Assembly (NCBI RefSeq): GCF_040954645.1
Contig: NC_092806.1
Span: 128,176,952 to 128,240,951 of the forward strand
Reading direction: 5' to 3'
DNA: 64,000 nucleotides
DNA from: Diabrotica undecimpunctata
Taxonomy: Eukaryota; Arthropoda; Insecta; Coleoptera; Chrysomelidae
Below the pieces are notes generated by a model. It had not been told where the DNA came from, made no database searches, and was given only the letters and a program-made list of their open reading frames with translations. A program made the position numbers and the translations under genes. Below, piece by piece: positions 41,446-51,350 of this stretch (within the stretch, counting starts at the first letter, position 1; every line of letters starts with the position of its first letter).

Positions 41446-41753
41446 TATATATAATATAATATTTATTAATCATATTATTGATGACCCTCGAAGATATAAT
41501 AAAATTAACAGATTGGGAAAACAGAGGAATATGTATTAACGGAAAGTACCTAAATCACCTTAGATATGCGGATGATATACTCCTAATCTCCTCGGAACGA
41601 CAAGAACTAGAATTAATGCTGAATGAACTTCATGAAAAATCACTGCAAAAAGGCCTAAAAATTAACTTTAACAAAACAAAAGTAATGACAAACACGGAAG
41701 ACCAAGAGGCAATAAAAATACAAATAGAAAAAATAGAACAGGTAAATGAGTAT

Positions 41754-42137
41754 TGTTGTGAATTTATTAATTGTTAAGTCTTTAATTTATAATGTCTTGT
41801 TCTTATCTTAATTCATTAAAAAGCACAATGACTGATATTTATTTATTTTCACTAAACATACATAATTTATTAAAAAGCGAACGTAACATTTTATCGCGAG
41901 CGCGTCGTCCGAATTAACTGTCCCTTCCAAATAAAGTTCCGTTATTATATACCAGTGCCGTTATCTCGAAAAATCCAAAACCTTCGATGGCGAAACGGTA
42001 AAGGCAAACTGGATTTCCCTCGCACTGGTTCTGGAAGGTCGCTCAGGTAAATCGAGGCCTCTCGTAATCTCTACAACATATTAGAATAAAAACATGTTTT
42101 AAAGGTTAAAAACTATGACTCATATTTTTACGTAACA
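41754..42137 (-). repeat. Gypsy 3' LTR
   Basis: 384 bp, TGTTACG...ACAACA on the minus strand. The last 32 bases of the pol frame lie inside it. Confidence 0.95.
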
Positions 42138-45100
42138 TTGCCCCCCTCTCAAAAGATGGTTCCTCCTGGAACCTTGTTGGGACTAGAACTGGAACGGTAT
42201 GCTGGTATCGGCAACTGGACCCTCTTTTACAACTTCCAGTTGTATAAAAATGACAAGGGACGGTTTTCTCTCCGCACCAGTAACTATGCGGATTGCAACA
42301 GACTAACACCTGGACTTCGGTGTCTTTAAAGATCTCCTCCACCATATTTCGGATAACTCTCCAATCTAATTGGCGGCACTCCAACTTTGGCATGGCTAAC
42401 TTTTGCACGTCGGACTCTAGTACGTGCCCTCTCAATTGAAGTAAGGCTTCCCATACATCTCGGTAGGTAGGTTGGTCACGGGCAGTGTCTTTTGTTACCA
42501 GGTAGAAAAGGTAACGTGATGCATCTTGGAGTTTCAAGGTTTTACCGGGAGCTGGCACTTGGCATTGAAGTTCTGCAACTCGACCAAACTTCCTTCGAAA
42601 GACGGATGCCAACCCTGGTGCGTCTTTGATACTGGCCGGGATGGTAAGGGCCAGCGAGTAGTCATCGGGGAGCGCGAGTAGATCTTGCTTTTCTTCAGTG
42701 GTAACACCATGTCTCGCTTTACCGGTACCTCCATAGGCACCCATGAATTCCTCAAACGTGAGGTCAGACACATCTTGGACTTGGTTTACTTCCACTTCTT
42801 CATCTACGTCGTGGTCACCTTCGAAAGATGCCAACCGGTTATGGTGTACTATCATCGGTTTTCCCCTCGGAATCTTGCTTATTCGGTAGATGACATCGTT
42901 GATCTTCTCCATGATGAGGTATGGACCTTCCCAAAACTGCTGCAATTTGGGAGAACAACCTTTTCGCTTCTTGGGATTATACAGCCATACTTTGTCGTTC
43001 TTCTTAAAGCAACCCTTTTCGGCTTGTGTATCGTACCGTTTCTTCATTCGGTCGCTAGCGATCTGAAGGTGGGAACGGACCAACTCATGTACATCGTCCA
43101 TTCTTCTTCGTAATTCGATCACATAATCTTCACCTGCTACATCTTCTCCAGGTCGACACCCAAATTCTAGATCACAAGGTAGTCGCATTTCGCGTCCGAA
43201 TAGGACTCTGGCTGGTGTCTGGCCCGTTGATTCGTTAACAGCAGATCTGTAGGCCATTGTGAAGAACGGAAGGTATTGGTCCCAGTCTCGCTGATGATCG
43301 GACACCATCTTTGTCAAATACTTGCCAACTGTCCTATTCATTCGTTCTACCATACCATCCGATTGCGGATGATACGCGGTAGTTCTTGTTTTCTTCATGC
43401 CTAGTCTATCACATATTCCTTGGAATAGATCACTTTCGAAGTTCCTGCCTTGGTCACTATGGATCTCCAAAGGCACTCCAAATCGGCTGATATATTCTTG
43501 GATCAACTTATCTGCAACGGTGGCGGCCTTCTGGTCTGGAAGTGCGTAAATCTCGACCCACTTAGTGAAGTAATCCATTACTACCAACATGTACTTGCCC
43601 CCATTTTCACTTTCTGGAAATGGCCCTGCAATGTCCAAAGCTATTCTTTCAAACGGGCTTCCAACATTATATTGTCTCATAGGAGCTCTCCTTTTCCGGT
43701 GAGGCCCGTTACTCGTAGCACAAATAGTACATTTCTTACACCAGTCTTTTACGTCGTCGGAACTGTTCATCCAATAAAACCGTTCCCGAATTCGCTGAAG
43801 GGTTTTCCTTACACCAAAATGCCCTCCCGATGGACTGTCGTGTAACTGACGAAGTACTTCGGCTATTCTGCTCTTTGGGATCACCAACTGTCTTCTCTTC
43901 TCTGAACCGTCATCATTTTCCAGGACTCGTTTGAGCAAGCCATCTTCGATGATAAATGAGTCCCACTGGGCCCAATACGTCTTAACTACTGAGCATAGGT
44001 TTGATATTTCCTGCCAAGGTGGTCGACGGTTTTCCTCTTTCCATTTTCGGATTTTCTGTATAACTGGATCTCTCTCTTGTTCTTCCCTTATCTTAGTAGG
44101 CGTCCAGTCGTCGTTGACAATCGTCGTTCTTAGCACTGCTGCTTCCTTGGATTCCGTTTTGTTGCAGTGGGAACACTCTGCTGGGCATGGCCTTCTGGAA
44201 AGAGAATCAGCGTTTCTGTGGCTAACTCCGGCCCGGTGCTCAATCTTAAAATGGTATTCTTGGAGTCGTTCGATCCACCTGGCTATCTGACCCTCTGGAT
44301 TCTTAAACTGCATCAACCACTTAAGGGCGGCATGGTCGGTTCGGATTAGAAACTTTCTGCCATAGAGGTATTGGTAGAAGTGCTCTACTGATTTAACTAC
44401 TGCTAGAAGTTCTCTTCTCGTGACGCAATAATTCCGCTCAGGTTTTGAAAGGACTTTACTAAAATATCCGAGGACTCGTTCCTGTCCTCCTTGAATCTGA
44501 GACAGCACTCCTCCAATTCCCACGTTACTTGCATCCGTATCTAAGATGAACTCTCCTTCTGGCAGTGGATACCCCAAAATTGGTGCGGTTATTAAATGCT
44601 TTTTCAACGTTTCAAAGGCATTTTGGCAGTCTATATCCCAGCGGTATTCTCTTGCTTCCTCTGTAAGTCGCGTTAATGGCTTAGCGATATCTGCAAACTT
44701 CTTAATAAACCTCCGGTAGTAAGTACATAGTCCAAGAAAACTTCTCACTTGATGTTTGTCAGTTGGTTTTGGCCATTCCTTAATGGAATCGATTTTTCCC
44801 TTATCCACGGCCACTCCTTCTTTACTGACTATATGACCCAGATAATTGACTTTACCTTGAAATAGCTGGCACTTCTTGGGGTTTAGCATCAATTGGGCAG
44901 CTTTAAGTCGATTAAAAATGTTTTCTAAATTCCTCAAATGATCTTCGAATGTCTCCCCCAAGACGATTATGTCATCTAAATAAACCAGGCATGTTTTCCA
45001 AGATAACCCTCTCAACACATTTTCCATAAGCCTCTCAAATGTCGCAGGAGCATTACAAAGTCCAAATGGCATAACGTTGAATTGCCACAATCCAGATCCT

Positions 45101-46284
45101 GTGGTGAAGGCTGTCTTTTCTTTATCGACTGGGTCCATTTCTACCTGCCAGTATCCAGACTTCAAATCTAAAGTAGAAAACAATTTACTTCCAGCCAATG
45201 TGTCCAATGTGTCATCGATCCGAGGCAGAGGATAACTATCTTTCTTGGTAACGTTGTTCAGCAAACGGTAATCCACACAGAACCTCGTCGTTCCGTCTTT
45301 CTTCTTAACCAGGACCACCGGAGAGACCCATGGGCTCGTAGAAGGTTCTATCACCCCGTCTTTCTTCATTTCCTGAACAATCGTTTCAGCTTCCTCTCTT
45401 TTCGCCTGTGGTAATCGTCGAGCTGTTTGACGAATTGGCTTAGCATTACCAGTATCAATTTTATGCTTAACAACCGTAGTTCTTCCCGTCTTTCCTCCTT
45501 TCGGTACGAAAATATCACGATACTGCCGAAGAAATTCCCTTAATTTCCTTTTCTCCATCTGATTTAGAGACTGTCCTGCAACTGCAACCATTTGGTCGAA
45601 TTTATCGTTGGAATTATCAGATGTTGTCGCCTGACGGATTATGGATGTCACAGGTACACAAGTTCCTACTTTTGTCTCTTTCTTTATGGTCACTGGGTAG
45701 TCGTTGACATTGATAAGTCTCACAGGAATTTCCTTAGCCGAAGTCACCAATTCCTTTCCAATTATGATTCCACGGCCAACCTCATCGTCGTGGTTCCAAG
45801 GCTCCATCATAACAGGTCTCCCTTCGTCCACAAATCCCTGTAGCCGCGCTACTATGATCGTTTCGCTTCTCGCAGGCACGACTGTATCTTCTGTAATGGC
45901 TGCTTGCACAGTGTTGTCATTATGTGGATGGAGAAATACCTCCTCGTTGCCAACTTTGATTACCTTATTCTTAAAATCCAATTGGAATCCATGCATATTC
46001 ATTACGTCCATTCCTAATATAACATCCTCTTCGATGTCAGCAACTATAACAGTATGGACGAACTTTTCTGCTCCAATTCCCAATTGTACCTGGATTTCTC
46101 CATGAATGTTGGCATTTTCACCTGTAGCGGTCCGAAGTCGTAACCTCGTTGGTAACAGTTTCTTTCGGCTGTTTATAACTGTCGGGCGTATAATGGTTCT
46201 GGTCGCTCCGGTATCCACCAACAACGTATGCTTTTTACCATTTATGTCTCCATCTACATATACACTATCTTCACGACATTTCAA
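42106..46284 (-). CDS. Gypsy Pol polyprotein with C-terminal macro domain and CCCH finger
   Basis: In order: an aspartic protease (LLVDTGATRTII, D24); a reverse transcriptase with YLDD at 435-438; RNase H; an integrase with an HHCC zinc region (H...H...CKKCTIC) and a perfect D884, D944, 35-residue spacing, E980 triad; and a GPY/F-type module (FWEGPYLIMEKI). Beyond the usual end, about residues 1206-1330 read as a TARG1/OARD1-like macro domain (APGLASVFRRKFGRVAEL, YLFYLVTKDTARDQPTY, LAMPKLECRQLDW, EIFKDTEVQVLV). A CCCH finger follows: C1344-x7-C1352-x5-C1358-x3-H1362. The frame continues upstream of the TTG at 46284 to a stop near 46402, so Pol is probably made by -1 frameshifting from gag, which it overlaps by about 45 nt. 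No env was found. Confidence 0.9.
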   Translation of the reverse strand: MKCREDSVYVDGDINGKKHTLLVDTGATRTIIRPTVINSRKKLLPTRLRLRTATGENANIHGEIQVQLGIGAEKFVHTVIVADIEEDVILGMDVMNMHGFQLDFKNKVIKVGNEEVFLHPHNDNTVQAAITEDTVVPARSETIIVARLQGFVDEGRPVMMEPWNHDDEVGRGIIIGKELVTSAKEIPVRLINVNDYPVTIKKETKVGTCVPVTSIIRQATTSDNSNDKFDQMVAVAGQSLNQMEKRKLREFLRQYRDIFVPKGGKTGRTTVVKHKIDTGNAKPIRQTARRLPQAKREEAETIVQEMKKDGVIEPSTSPWVSPVVLVKKKDGTTRFCVDYRLLNNVTKKDSYPLPRIDDTLDTLAGSKLFSTLDLKSGYWQVEMDPVDKEKTAFTTGSGLWQFNVMPFGLCNAPATFERLMENVLRGLSWKTCLVYLDDIIVLGETFEDHLRNLENIFNRLKAAQLMLNPKKCQLFQGKVNYLGHIVSKEGVAVDKGKIDSIKEWPKPTDKHQVRSFLGLCTYYRRFIKKFADIAKPLTRLTEEAREYRWDIDCQNAFETLKKHLITAPILGYPLPEGEFILDTDASNVGIGGVLSQIQGGQERVLGYFSKVLSKPERNYCVTRRELLAVVKSVEHFYQYLYGRKFLIRTDHAALKWLMQFKNPEGQIARWIERLQEYHFKIEHRAGVSHRNADSLSRRPCPAECSHCNKTESKEAAVLRTTIVNDDWTPTKIREEQERDPVIQKIRKWKEENRRPPWQEISNLCSVVKTYWAQWDSFIIEDGLLKRVLENDDGSEKRRQLVIPKSRIAEVLRQLHDSPSGGHFGVRKTLQRIRERFYWMNSSDDVKDWCKKCTICATSNGPHRKRRAPMRQYNVGSPFERIALDIAGPFPESENGGKYMLVVMDYFTKWVEIYALPDQKAATVADKLIQEYISRFGVPLEIHSDQGRNFESDLFQGICDRLGMKKTRTTAYHPQSDGMVERMNRTVGKYLTKMVSDHQRDWDQYLPFFTMAYRSAVNESTGQTPARVLFGREMRLPCDLEFGCRPGEDVAGEDYVIELRRRMDDVHELVRSHLQIASDRMKKRYDTQAEKGCFKKNDKVWLYNPKKRKGCSPKLQQFWEGPYLIMEKINDVIYRISKIPRGKPMIVHHNRLASFEGDHDVDEEVEVNQVQDVSDLTFEEFMGAYGGTGKARHGVTTEEKQDLLALPDDYSLALTIPASIKDAPGLASVFRRKFGRVAELQCQVPAPGKTLKLQDASRYLFYLVTKDTARDQPTYRDVWEALLQLRGHVLESDVQKLAMPKLECRQLDWRVIRNMVEEIFKDTEVQVLVCCNPHSYWCGEKTVPCHFYTTGSCKRGSSCRYQHTVPVLVPTRFQEEPSFERGAMLRKNMSHSF
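42138..42150 (-). other. Gypsy polypurine tract
   Basis: GAGAGGGGGGCAA on the minus strand directly precedes the 3' LTR and would prime second-strand DNA synthesis. Here it is also coding (ERGA in Pol). Confidence 0.85.
42285..42665 (-). other. Macro (ADP-ribose-binding-like) domain within Pol
   Basis: Residues about 1207-1333 follow the TARG1/OARD1 layout. A substrate-loop-like segment is followed by FRRKFG (family: FKKKFG), an inner strand YLVTK with the Lys used as catalytic residue in TARG1, PTY, a helix, and SMP-like AMP, then LDW and a final EIFKDT strand. The Gly-rich GCGLD loop that supplies the catalytic Asp in TARG1 is shortened to ECRQ-LDW, so hydrolase activity may be lost while ADP-ribose binding remains possible. 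The assignment is by motif recognition, not by a search. Confidence 0.75.
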
Positions 46285-47669: not shown

Positions 47670-48053
47670 TGTTGTGAATTTATTAATTGTTAAGTCTTTA
47701 ATTTATAATGTCTTGTTCTTATCTTAATTCATTAAAAAGCACAATGACTGATATTTATTTATTTTCACTAAACATACATAATTTATTAAAAAGCGAACGT
47801 AACATTTTATCGCGAGCGCGTCGTCCGAATTAACTGTCCCTTCCAAATAAAGTTCCGTTATTATATACCAGTGCCGTTATCTCGAAAAATCCAAAACCTT
47901 CGATGGCGAAACGGTAAAGGCAAACTGGATTTCCCTCGCACTGGTTCTGGAAGGTCGCTCAGGTAAATCGAGGCCTCTCGTAATCTCTACAACATATTAG
48001 AATAAAAACATGTTTTAAAGGTTAAAAACTATGACTCATATTTTTACGTAACA
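47670..48053 (-). repeat. Gypsy 5' LTR
   Basis: 384 bp, the same length and, as far as I can see, the same sequence as the 3' LTR. Confidence 0.95.
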
Positions 48054-48225
48054 GTATATATATCTAGGACAAGCAATCAGAGCTAACAGAGAAAATCAAA
48101 CAGCCGAAATATCGAGACGAGTAAGAATGGGATAGGCAGCGTTCGGCAAACTTTCTTACGTTCTAAAAAATCAAACAATCCCTCTATACTTACGAAGCAA
48201 GGTATATAACTCCTGTATAATACCG

Positions 48226-50461: not shown

Positions 50462-51350
50462 CAACCGGGACAACTTCTTGTACACATTAAGCTTTGCAGA
50501 TGACCAAGTGGTAACGGCTCAAGATGAAGAAGATCTGTGCTATATGCTCCGAAAATTAGAAAAGGAATACACAAAAAATGGACTGGAAATAAATCTAGAG
50601 AAGACCGAATATTTAACAACAGAGCAAGAACCAGAATACACAAAAAATGGAGTGGAAATAAATCTAGAAAAGACCGAATATTTAACAACAGAGCAAGAAC
50701 CAGTGAGAAACTTGGAAATGGACGATAATAGGGAAATTAACGGCACTGACAAATTCAAATATTTAGGATTTATGCTCGAAAAAAATGGAACCACCGAGCA
50801 AGAGATAACCAGCAGATTAGCACAGACAAGAACATGTATTAAACAAATGAACGGGGTACTGTGGGATAGACAGATTACCAGAAATACAAAGAAGAGAATC
50901 TATAACACCTTGGTACGCAGTATAATGACCTATGGAGCAGAGAATTGGGTAATAAATAAACGAAACAGGTCCAAAATCACAGCAACTGAAATGGAGTTCA
51001 TGAGAAGAAGTTGCAGAGTGACAAAAATGGATCGTATCAGAAATGAGGAGATAAAACGAAGAATGGCAGTAGAACAAGACATACTCAGCTACATCGAAGA
51101 AAAACGTTTAATTTGGTATGGACATGTGAGAAGAACAGATCATACGAGGTGGATAGCAAAGATTTCGGATTGAAGCCCAATAGGAAGAAGAAAAAGAGGT
51201 AGACCCGAAGATCATGGAGGGATGAAGTGGACGAGGCCATGGAAAGACGAGACCTTAGAGATGGAGAATGGCAGAACAGAAAGGACTGGAGACGTTTGCT
51301 GAAAGAAGGAAGGTGGCGACAGCTGTAAAAATCCTTATATAGGTAGATAG
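50462..51350 (+). mobile_element. 5'-truncated RTE-like element with perfect TSD (copy F)
   Basis: A perfect 14-bp duplication (AACTTTTGAGGTTA at 50448-50461 and 51351-51364) brackets it. It begins a few residues before the RT box and ends after RRKRGRP with a short UTR. It is a recent insertion. Confidence 0.9.
50478..51173 (+). pseudogene. RTE RT C-terminal part with in-frame 69-bp duplication
   Basis: The frame starts MYTLSFADDQVVTAQDEEDL (catalytic FADD). It then holds two tandem copies of a 23-residue unit (EYTKNGLEINLEKTEYLTTE, then QEP), with only one substitution visible between them. It continues through IMTYGAENWVINKRNRSKIT and LIWYGHVRRTDHTRWIAKIS. A frameshift near 51170 detaches the RRKRGRP end (about 51180-51330). 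The duplication would put an extra copy of a conserved strand in the palm. Confidence 0.8.

Follow-up and report, generated by a model that had tools for sequence, protein, structure and literature searches.

The window analysed here, a stretch of 64,000 nucleotides from contig NC_092806.1 of Diabrotica undecimpunctata, contains a Ty3/gypsy long-terminal-repeat (LTR) retrotransposon whose Pol polyprotein carries an ALC1-like (TARG1-type) macro domain fused past the integrase C-terminal module, the order along Pol being integrase, PF22938, macro domain and CCCH finger. In the window's lineage this domain has lost the catalytic aspartate, and its sequence is under constraint between two element families of the same genome; as a tentative reading, it may now serve the integrase as a binding module.

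The original prediction, made from the sequence alone, had recognized a TARG1/OARD1-like macro domain in this position, and both homology and fold bore it out: the window tail matched TARG1 with a phmmer E value of 2.7e-22 and 34% identity across the domain, and TARG1 was the closest structure to the fold of the tail, as expected for the ALC1-like class. The comparison with TARG1 that the prediction had proposed thus gave a clear result. The Pfam Macro profile PF01661 gave no match to the window tail at E ≤ 1, so that its curated cut-off was not reached, and was dropped as proof for this copy; the relative P0055 passed that cut-off. The CCCH finger exceeded the threshold of PF00642 (28.7 bits versus a cut-off of 20.5), its three cysteines and one histidine were invariant across the 8 sequences of our alignment A1, and its relatives in the PDB include the RNA-binding proteins CPSF4 and RBM22. 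A chromodomain or an ordinary gypsy tail was ruled out, no Chromo family having matched the tail at E ≤ 1.

We number the residues of the tail after TARG1, in which the lysine of YLITK is 84. The window tail keeps that lysine, YLVTK aligning with YLITK, whereas the GCGLD of TARG1 (121–125) is represented by EC-R, with two residues missing; neither of two alignments placed an aspartate or a glutamate at column 125, and whether D125 is to be described as deleted or as replaced depends on the alignment. A review names the catalytic partner as Glu125 (PMC7050489); the TARG1 chain in our alignment has an aspartate at that column. The first glycine loop, MGAG in TARG1, reads DAPG in the window. In family A, to which the window belongs, K84 and the deleted loop occurred in 39/39 tails examined, and in a second family of this genome, family C, residue 84 was arginine in 30/30 copies with D125 present in 28/30 and glutamate in the other 2/30, so that neither of the two families of this genome that were examined has an intact dyad. 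A dyad-intact query against the same genome revealed no dyad-intact family among the 150 of 5794 candidates that were scored: E ≤ 1e-60 was reached by 113 of the 150, with identities of 45–47% throughout, many at family C places and none closer. The OARD1-like host gene of this genome (locus L109) keeps both catalytic residues, in ITK and GCGLD. The removal of ADP-ribose by this copy, as envisaged originally, was accordingly not supported, K84 being kept and D125 and the MGAG loop lost; judging from these residues, hydrolysis by this copy is unlikely.

The survey of related elements that had been suggested was carried out and found the same tail in relatives. Protein searches returned 3, 7 and 242 proteins (the best 120 of the 242 being listed), and a row was taken as element-linked when it contained a pattern for the integrase C-terminal region or for the CCCH finger. 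Such linkage was present in 36 of 121 macro rows—24 with the integrase-side pattern, 26 with the CCCH pattern and 14 with both—12 of which were counted through the CCCH pattern alone, while several of the 10 linked rows without it are incomplete. These 36 comprise the window, 19 rows from eight species and 16 further rows, several being near-copies from one species. The eight species, all beetles, are Diabrotica virgifera, Gonioctena quinquepunctata, Leptinotarsa decemlineata, Callosobruchus maculatus, Aromia moschata, Molorchus minor, Brassicogethes aeneus and Pyrocoelia pectoralis. Both patterns occurred within one protein in Diabrotica, Leptinotarsa, Aromia and Molorchus and in separate records in Callosobruchus; Gonioctena and Brassicogethes showed the CCCH pattern only, and Pyrocoelia the integrase side only. 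The closest named protein was from D. virgifera (89% identity), and in alignment A1 the frame was open in all 8 sequences, the 7 others being 42–91% identical to the window. Independent records, moreover, join PF22938 with Macro or CCCH matches. Many relatives' tails end in residues, for example LRRGQCN or KEGAVLR, which in our reading would fit a polypurine tract followed by the start of an LTR. Scans of IMG/VR confirmed no relative.

Two relatives from JGI contigs, P0025 and P0037, have a different arrangement: Gag or protease sequence continues into the hinge and the macro domain (and, in P0037, the CCCH finger as well), with both junctions shortly before an F-x-x-F motif. These may be deletion derivatives, or else spliced RNAs yielding a separate macro protein. 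The Drosophila proteins P0029 and P0031 each contain two tandem matches to the macro profile.

In a quick tree of the 121 macro domains, built from few columns and with many of its forks unresolved, a single 52-row clade (approximate likelihood-ratio support, SH-aLRT, 96) took in every one of the 36 element-linked rows along with 16 rows that show no linkage. A more careful tree of 50 chosen rows placed 26/26 element rows, of which two belong to family C and 24 to the 36 above, in one clade with support 100/96, among insect OARD1 genes and near the beetle ones, this genome's host gene included. From these trees, the macro domain of the elements probably derives from an insect TARG1/OARD1 gene, captured probably once, a single capture followed by spread being the simplest reading. 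The proteins P0049, P0050 and P0051, from Macrosteles and Nilaparvata and annotated as OARD1-like, lay inside the element clade of the larger tree, and the 50-row tree likewise placed two such hemipteran genes, P0049 and P0051, within that clade; these three might be unrecognized pieces of elements or domesticated copies.

Outside the 52-row clade K84 and D125 were both kept in 69/69 rows. Among the 36 element-linked rows, 27 have both residues, at least one is missing in 8 (P0001, which is the window, P0003, P0006, P0007, P0008, P0009, P0022 and P0037) and P0016 is ambiguous. Seven of those eight form one aspartate-lost subclade of the 50-row tree (support 98/90), which makes a single loss of the aspartate in that group probable; the two-residue deletion is present in five of the seven and absent from P0009 and P0022.

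The copies of the element in the 1.74-Gb genome were ranked by score, and the counts are lower bounds. With the window tail as query, 145 of 6543 candidates were scored, all at 99–100% identity; the P0007 tail gave 150 scored places at 70–71% identity, the 30 fetched of which belonged to the window's family, and the family C query gave 113. The matched stretch contained no stop in 144/145, 148/150 and 109/113 of these score-ranked copies, respectively. At the DNA level, 40/40 scored copies (of 1159 candidates) of a 601-bp integrase stretch were identical, which identity points to a recent burst. Certain copies are open for about 1800–1866 amino acids through the tail and others for 1413–1431, so that gag and pol may lie in a single frame in some and be frame-shifted in others. 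At the loci L019, L025, L032 and L037, the tails are 98–99% alike in protein and the LTR-end matches to the window LTR only 75–89% identical, a divergence that suggests recombination or a fast LTR turnover. In a survey of target sites, a match reached the LTR end in 7 of 68 fetched loci (7/38 of family A), too few to be used.

With respect to selection, the tails of families A and C were compared in five pairings of 161–162 codons, all five of which gave an amino-acid identity of 0.40–0.43, a saturated proportion of synonymous differences (pS) of 0.87–0.89, a proportion of replacement differences (pN) of 0.39–0.41 and a replacement rate (dN) of 0.55–0.60. The tail is thus under constraint between these families. 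The expectation that the module is maintained, and that a comparison of replacement and synonymous rates (dN/dS) across copies would reveal selection, held for this contrast between families; in the larger DNA-ranked sample of young copies, considered below, the shortage of replacement changes was not significant.

Our proposal is that a Ty3/gypsy clade of insects, mainly of beetles, captured the macro domain of an insect TARG1/OARD1 gene, and that this domain, usually accompanied by a CCCH finger, now extends the C terminus of the integrase. In the window's lineage the aspartate would have disappeared, with frame and fold retained under constraint, so that the module has most likely ceased to remove ADP-ribose. 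The macro fold would instead bind an ADP-ribosylated protein, a nucleic-acid end or an ancestral partner, and the CCCH finger would bind RNA, so that the integration complex or the element RNA would likely be tethered from the position where chromoviruses carry their chromodomain. An integrase-borne module of this kind, a tether or a reader derived from an eraser, is the possibility that we tentatively prefer, though we would stop short of calling it probable.

Several observations weigh against that proposal. The tail does have an aspartate three residues past 125, in LDW, which might in principle substitute for the one lost; we think that it is not a stand-in because it also accompanies D125 in many dyad-intact relatives (GLDGLDW). 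Since both glycine loops differ from those of TARG1, the binding of ADP-ribose itself may have been lost. Pairs within family C (6 chosen of 435 possible) speak for constraint, with a dN/dS of about 0.16–0.27 at a dS of 0.13–0.19, but for these values, as for pN/pS within families, the copies had been ranked by protein score, which biases the ratios low; by our own arithmetic these pairs have about 11–14 replacement changes against the 50–70 or so expected at that dS without constraint, a difference for which we judge the bias too small to account. Within family A (39 tails, the window included) pN/pS was 0.13 for the macro domain (741 pairs) and 0.18 for the integrase (595 of 741 pairs, those more than 15% different being excluded), and within family C (30 copies) 0.17 (435 pairs) and 0.08 (378 of 435), on which figures we do not rely, protein score having been the basis for choosing the loci. 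Young copies ranked by DNA were obtained as 40 by integrase DNA, then 8 of 40 from a second sample. The first sample, of 39 rows, had 12 replacement and 10 synonymous variants, a nominally low ratio (P 0.02–0.09); the larger one, with 20 and 12 variants in 44 rows (the 48 copies minus L072, L100, L110, L116 and L117, which had stops or indels, plus the window), was not significant (P 0.06–0.23), and a test of shared versus singleton variants in young copies found nothing (P 0.58). The constraint on the macro domain is also weaker than that on the integrase, identity to P0003 being lower in the former (0.68 versus 0.85).

The original prediction had suggested counter-defence. On such a reading the module would be an eraser that, in the manner of viral macro domains, strips ADP-ribose placed by host PARPs on element protein, RNA, complementary-DNA ends or insertion-site chromatin. 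Mobile-element expression in flies has been tied to PARP-1, with caveats, in one report, its authors stating that the effect may be indirect (PMC7712786). For the window copy the idea was not supported: D125 is absent from all the family A tails examined and residue 84 is arginine in all the family C copies examined, and the first loop is unlike that of TARG1, with serine at 41 in 40 and arginine at 42 in 39 of the 52 clade rows. In the wider clade, in which 27 of the 36 linked rows keep both residues, hydrolysis is plausible, and with it counter-defence; as an account of the module, we consider an eraser rather unlikely. Quite unlikely, in our view, is a variant in which a host TARG1 eraser was taken once against ADP-ribosylation control and has since turned, in the window's lineage, into a reader or trap (the lysine kept, the resolving acid gone) by which the integrase is anchored to ADP-ribosylated chromatin or the mark is sequestered; the review cited above does describe TARG1 mutants that keep the attacking lysine without the resolving acid and trap ADP-ribose covalently (PMC7050489).

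Alternatively, the CCCH finger and the macro fold might jointly bind the RNA of the element, to serve its packaging or reverse transcription, with no participation of ADP-ribose. The frequency of the CCCH pattern in the linked rows, the invariance of its ligands, the RNA-binding relatives of the finger and the fact that two families of one genome have each lost a catalytic residue would fit such a role. Gag, however, already has a CCHC knuckle, and P0046 and P0055 keep a macro domain with an intact dyad and no CCCH match, which suggests a separate role for the macro domain; an RNA or particle module is conceivable but doubtful. That the domain should be a functionless passenger, open only through the youth of the element, would agree with the lost catalytic residue and with the lack of a significant replacement shortage in the larger DNA-ranked sample, but is very improbable in view of the frame open across alignment A1, the synonymous saturation at the pN between families A and C given above, the nearly stop-free copies and the related tails in eight named species. 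An artefact of assembly or gene modelling that fused Pol to a host gene could be suspected from the many related records that are short gene models; for this window it is ruled out, the raw DNA frame being open from integrase through macro domain, CCCH finger and polypurine tract into the LTR, with the tail at 145 scored genome places and PF22938 combined with Macro or CCCH in independent records.

The features of the element are compiled in Table 1. That it is intact with matching LTRs, as predicted, was confirmed: the repeats were identical over 385/385 bases, GTAT stood on both outer flanks, the Pol pieces contained protease, reverse transcriptase, RNase H and integrase in the Ty3/gypsy order, and the open Pol frame reads through the polypurine tract to a stop codon inside the 3' LTR. 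The SAP domain, Retrotrans_gag and the CCHC knuckle of Gag each exceeded its own Pfam cut-off; the SAP domain (PF02037, E 8.6e-7), N-terminal in the Gag frame, is of a DNA-binding type unexpected for a gypsy Gag. No second copy of the tail or integrase was found in the window by tblastn at E ≤ 1e-3. A tandem 69-bp repeat (50558–50695, 93% alike) lies close to the element.

Table 1. Components of the Ty3/gypsy element, in window positions.
Feature	Position	Strand	Remarks
Target site duplication GTAT	41750..41753; other side 48054–48057		Read from the flanks
3' LTR, TG...CA, 384 bp	41754..42137	-	Exact repeat is 385 bp including one extra base
Polypurine tract abutting the 3' LTR, within the Pol frame	42138..42150	-	From sequence; function from general knowledge of LTR elements
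Pol frame, 1392 amino acids from first ATG/GTG/TTG	42106..46284 (stop to stop 46395–42109)	-	Protease, reverse transcriptase, RNase H, integrase, tail
CCCH zinc finger, C-x7-C-x5-C-x3-H	42199..42255	-	
TARG1/OARD1-like macro domain	42301..42723	-	Retains the catalytic Lys but neither the catalytic Asp nor its Gly loop
Integrase C-terminal domain PF22938	42829..42900	-	P0001 residues 1–24; GPY/F of the original prediction
Integrase core PF00665	43366..43653	-	P0002 residues 50–145
Gag frame, stop to stop, 426 amino acids	46359..47636	-	SAP domain, Retrotrans_gag, CCHC knuckle
5' LTR	47670..48053	-	Identical to the 3' LTR

Among known systems, TARG1/OARD1 (C6orf130) shares with the tail its fold, sequence and catalytic lysine, but stands alone and has the aspartate and glycine loops that the tail, fused to integrase and CCCH finger, lacks. 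The chromodomain of chromoviruses lies after the integrase and is said, in the title of one paper, to steer integration to heterochromatin. Like those elements, the present one has an accessory domain after the integrase C-terminal module; the domain there is a chromodomain, and here a macro domain with a CCCH finger. The CHROMO domain of chromoviruses is mentioned in a study on orchids, in which Ty3/gypsy elements with an AlkB N6-methyladenosine-demethylase domain, active in vitro, are described (PMC9289625). This is the closest precedent that we found, a cellular-type enzyme domain kept in a gypsy lineage, though in a separate open reading frame, of another family and in a plant. Macro folds in viral or mobile genomes include those of alphavirus nsP3, Kadipiro virus VP8 and large DNA viruses; VP8 was the best match to the tail in a viral library, in which no reverse-transcribing element appeared by name among the 50 matches listed, many of them nameless. 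The macro domain of DarG (DarTG) differs in belonging to a bacterial antitoxin and is 24% identical to the tail.

Among the papers listed in searches of the open-licence literature, none reported an LTR retrotransposon with a macro domain, most subscription journals and bioRxiv being outside that scope; within it, the present domain would be the first reported, and it sits on the integrase. Additional conserved domains are rarely fixed in LTR retrotransposons, according to the orchid study (PMC9289625), and those that are fixed are informative about host control. The clade offers natural variants—with the dyad intact, with the lysine lost, with the aspartate lost, and with or without the CCCH finger—and makes testable whether ADP-ribosylation restrains animal retrotransposons, and whether an element can evade or read that mark.
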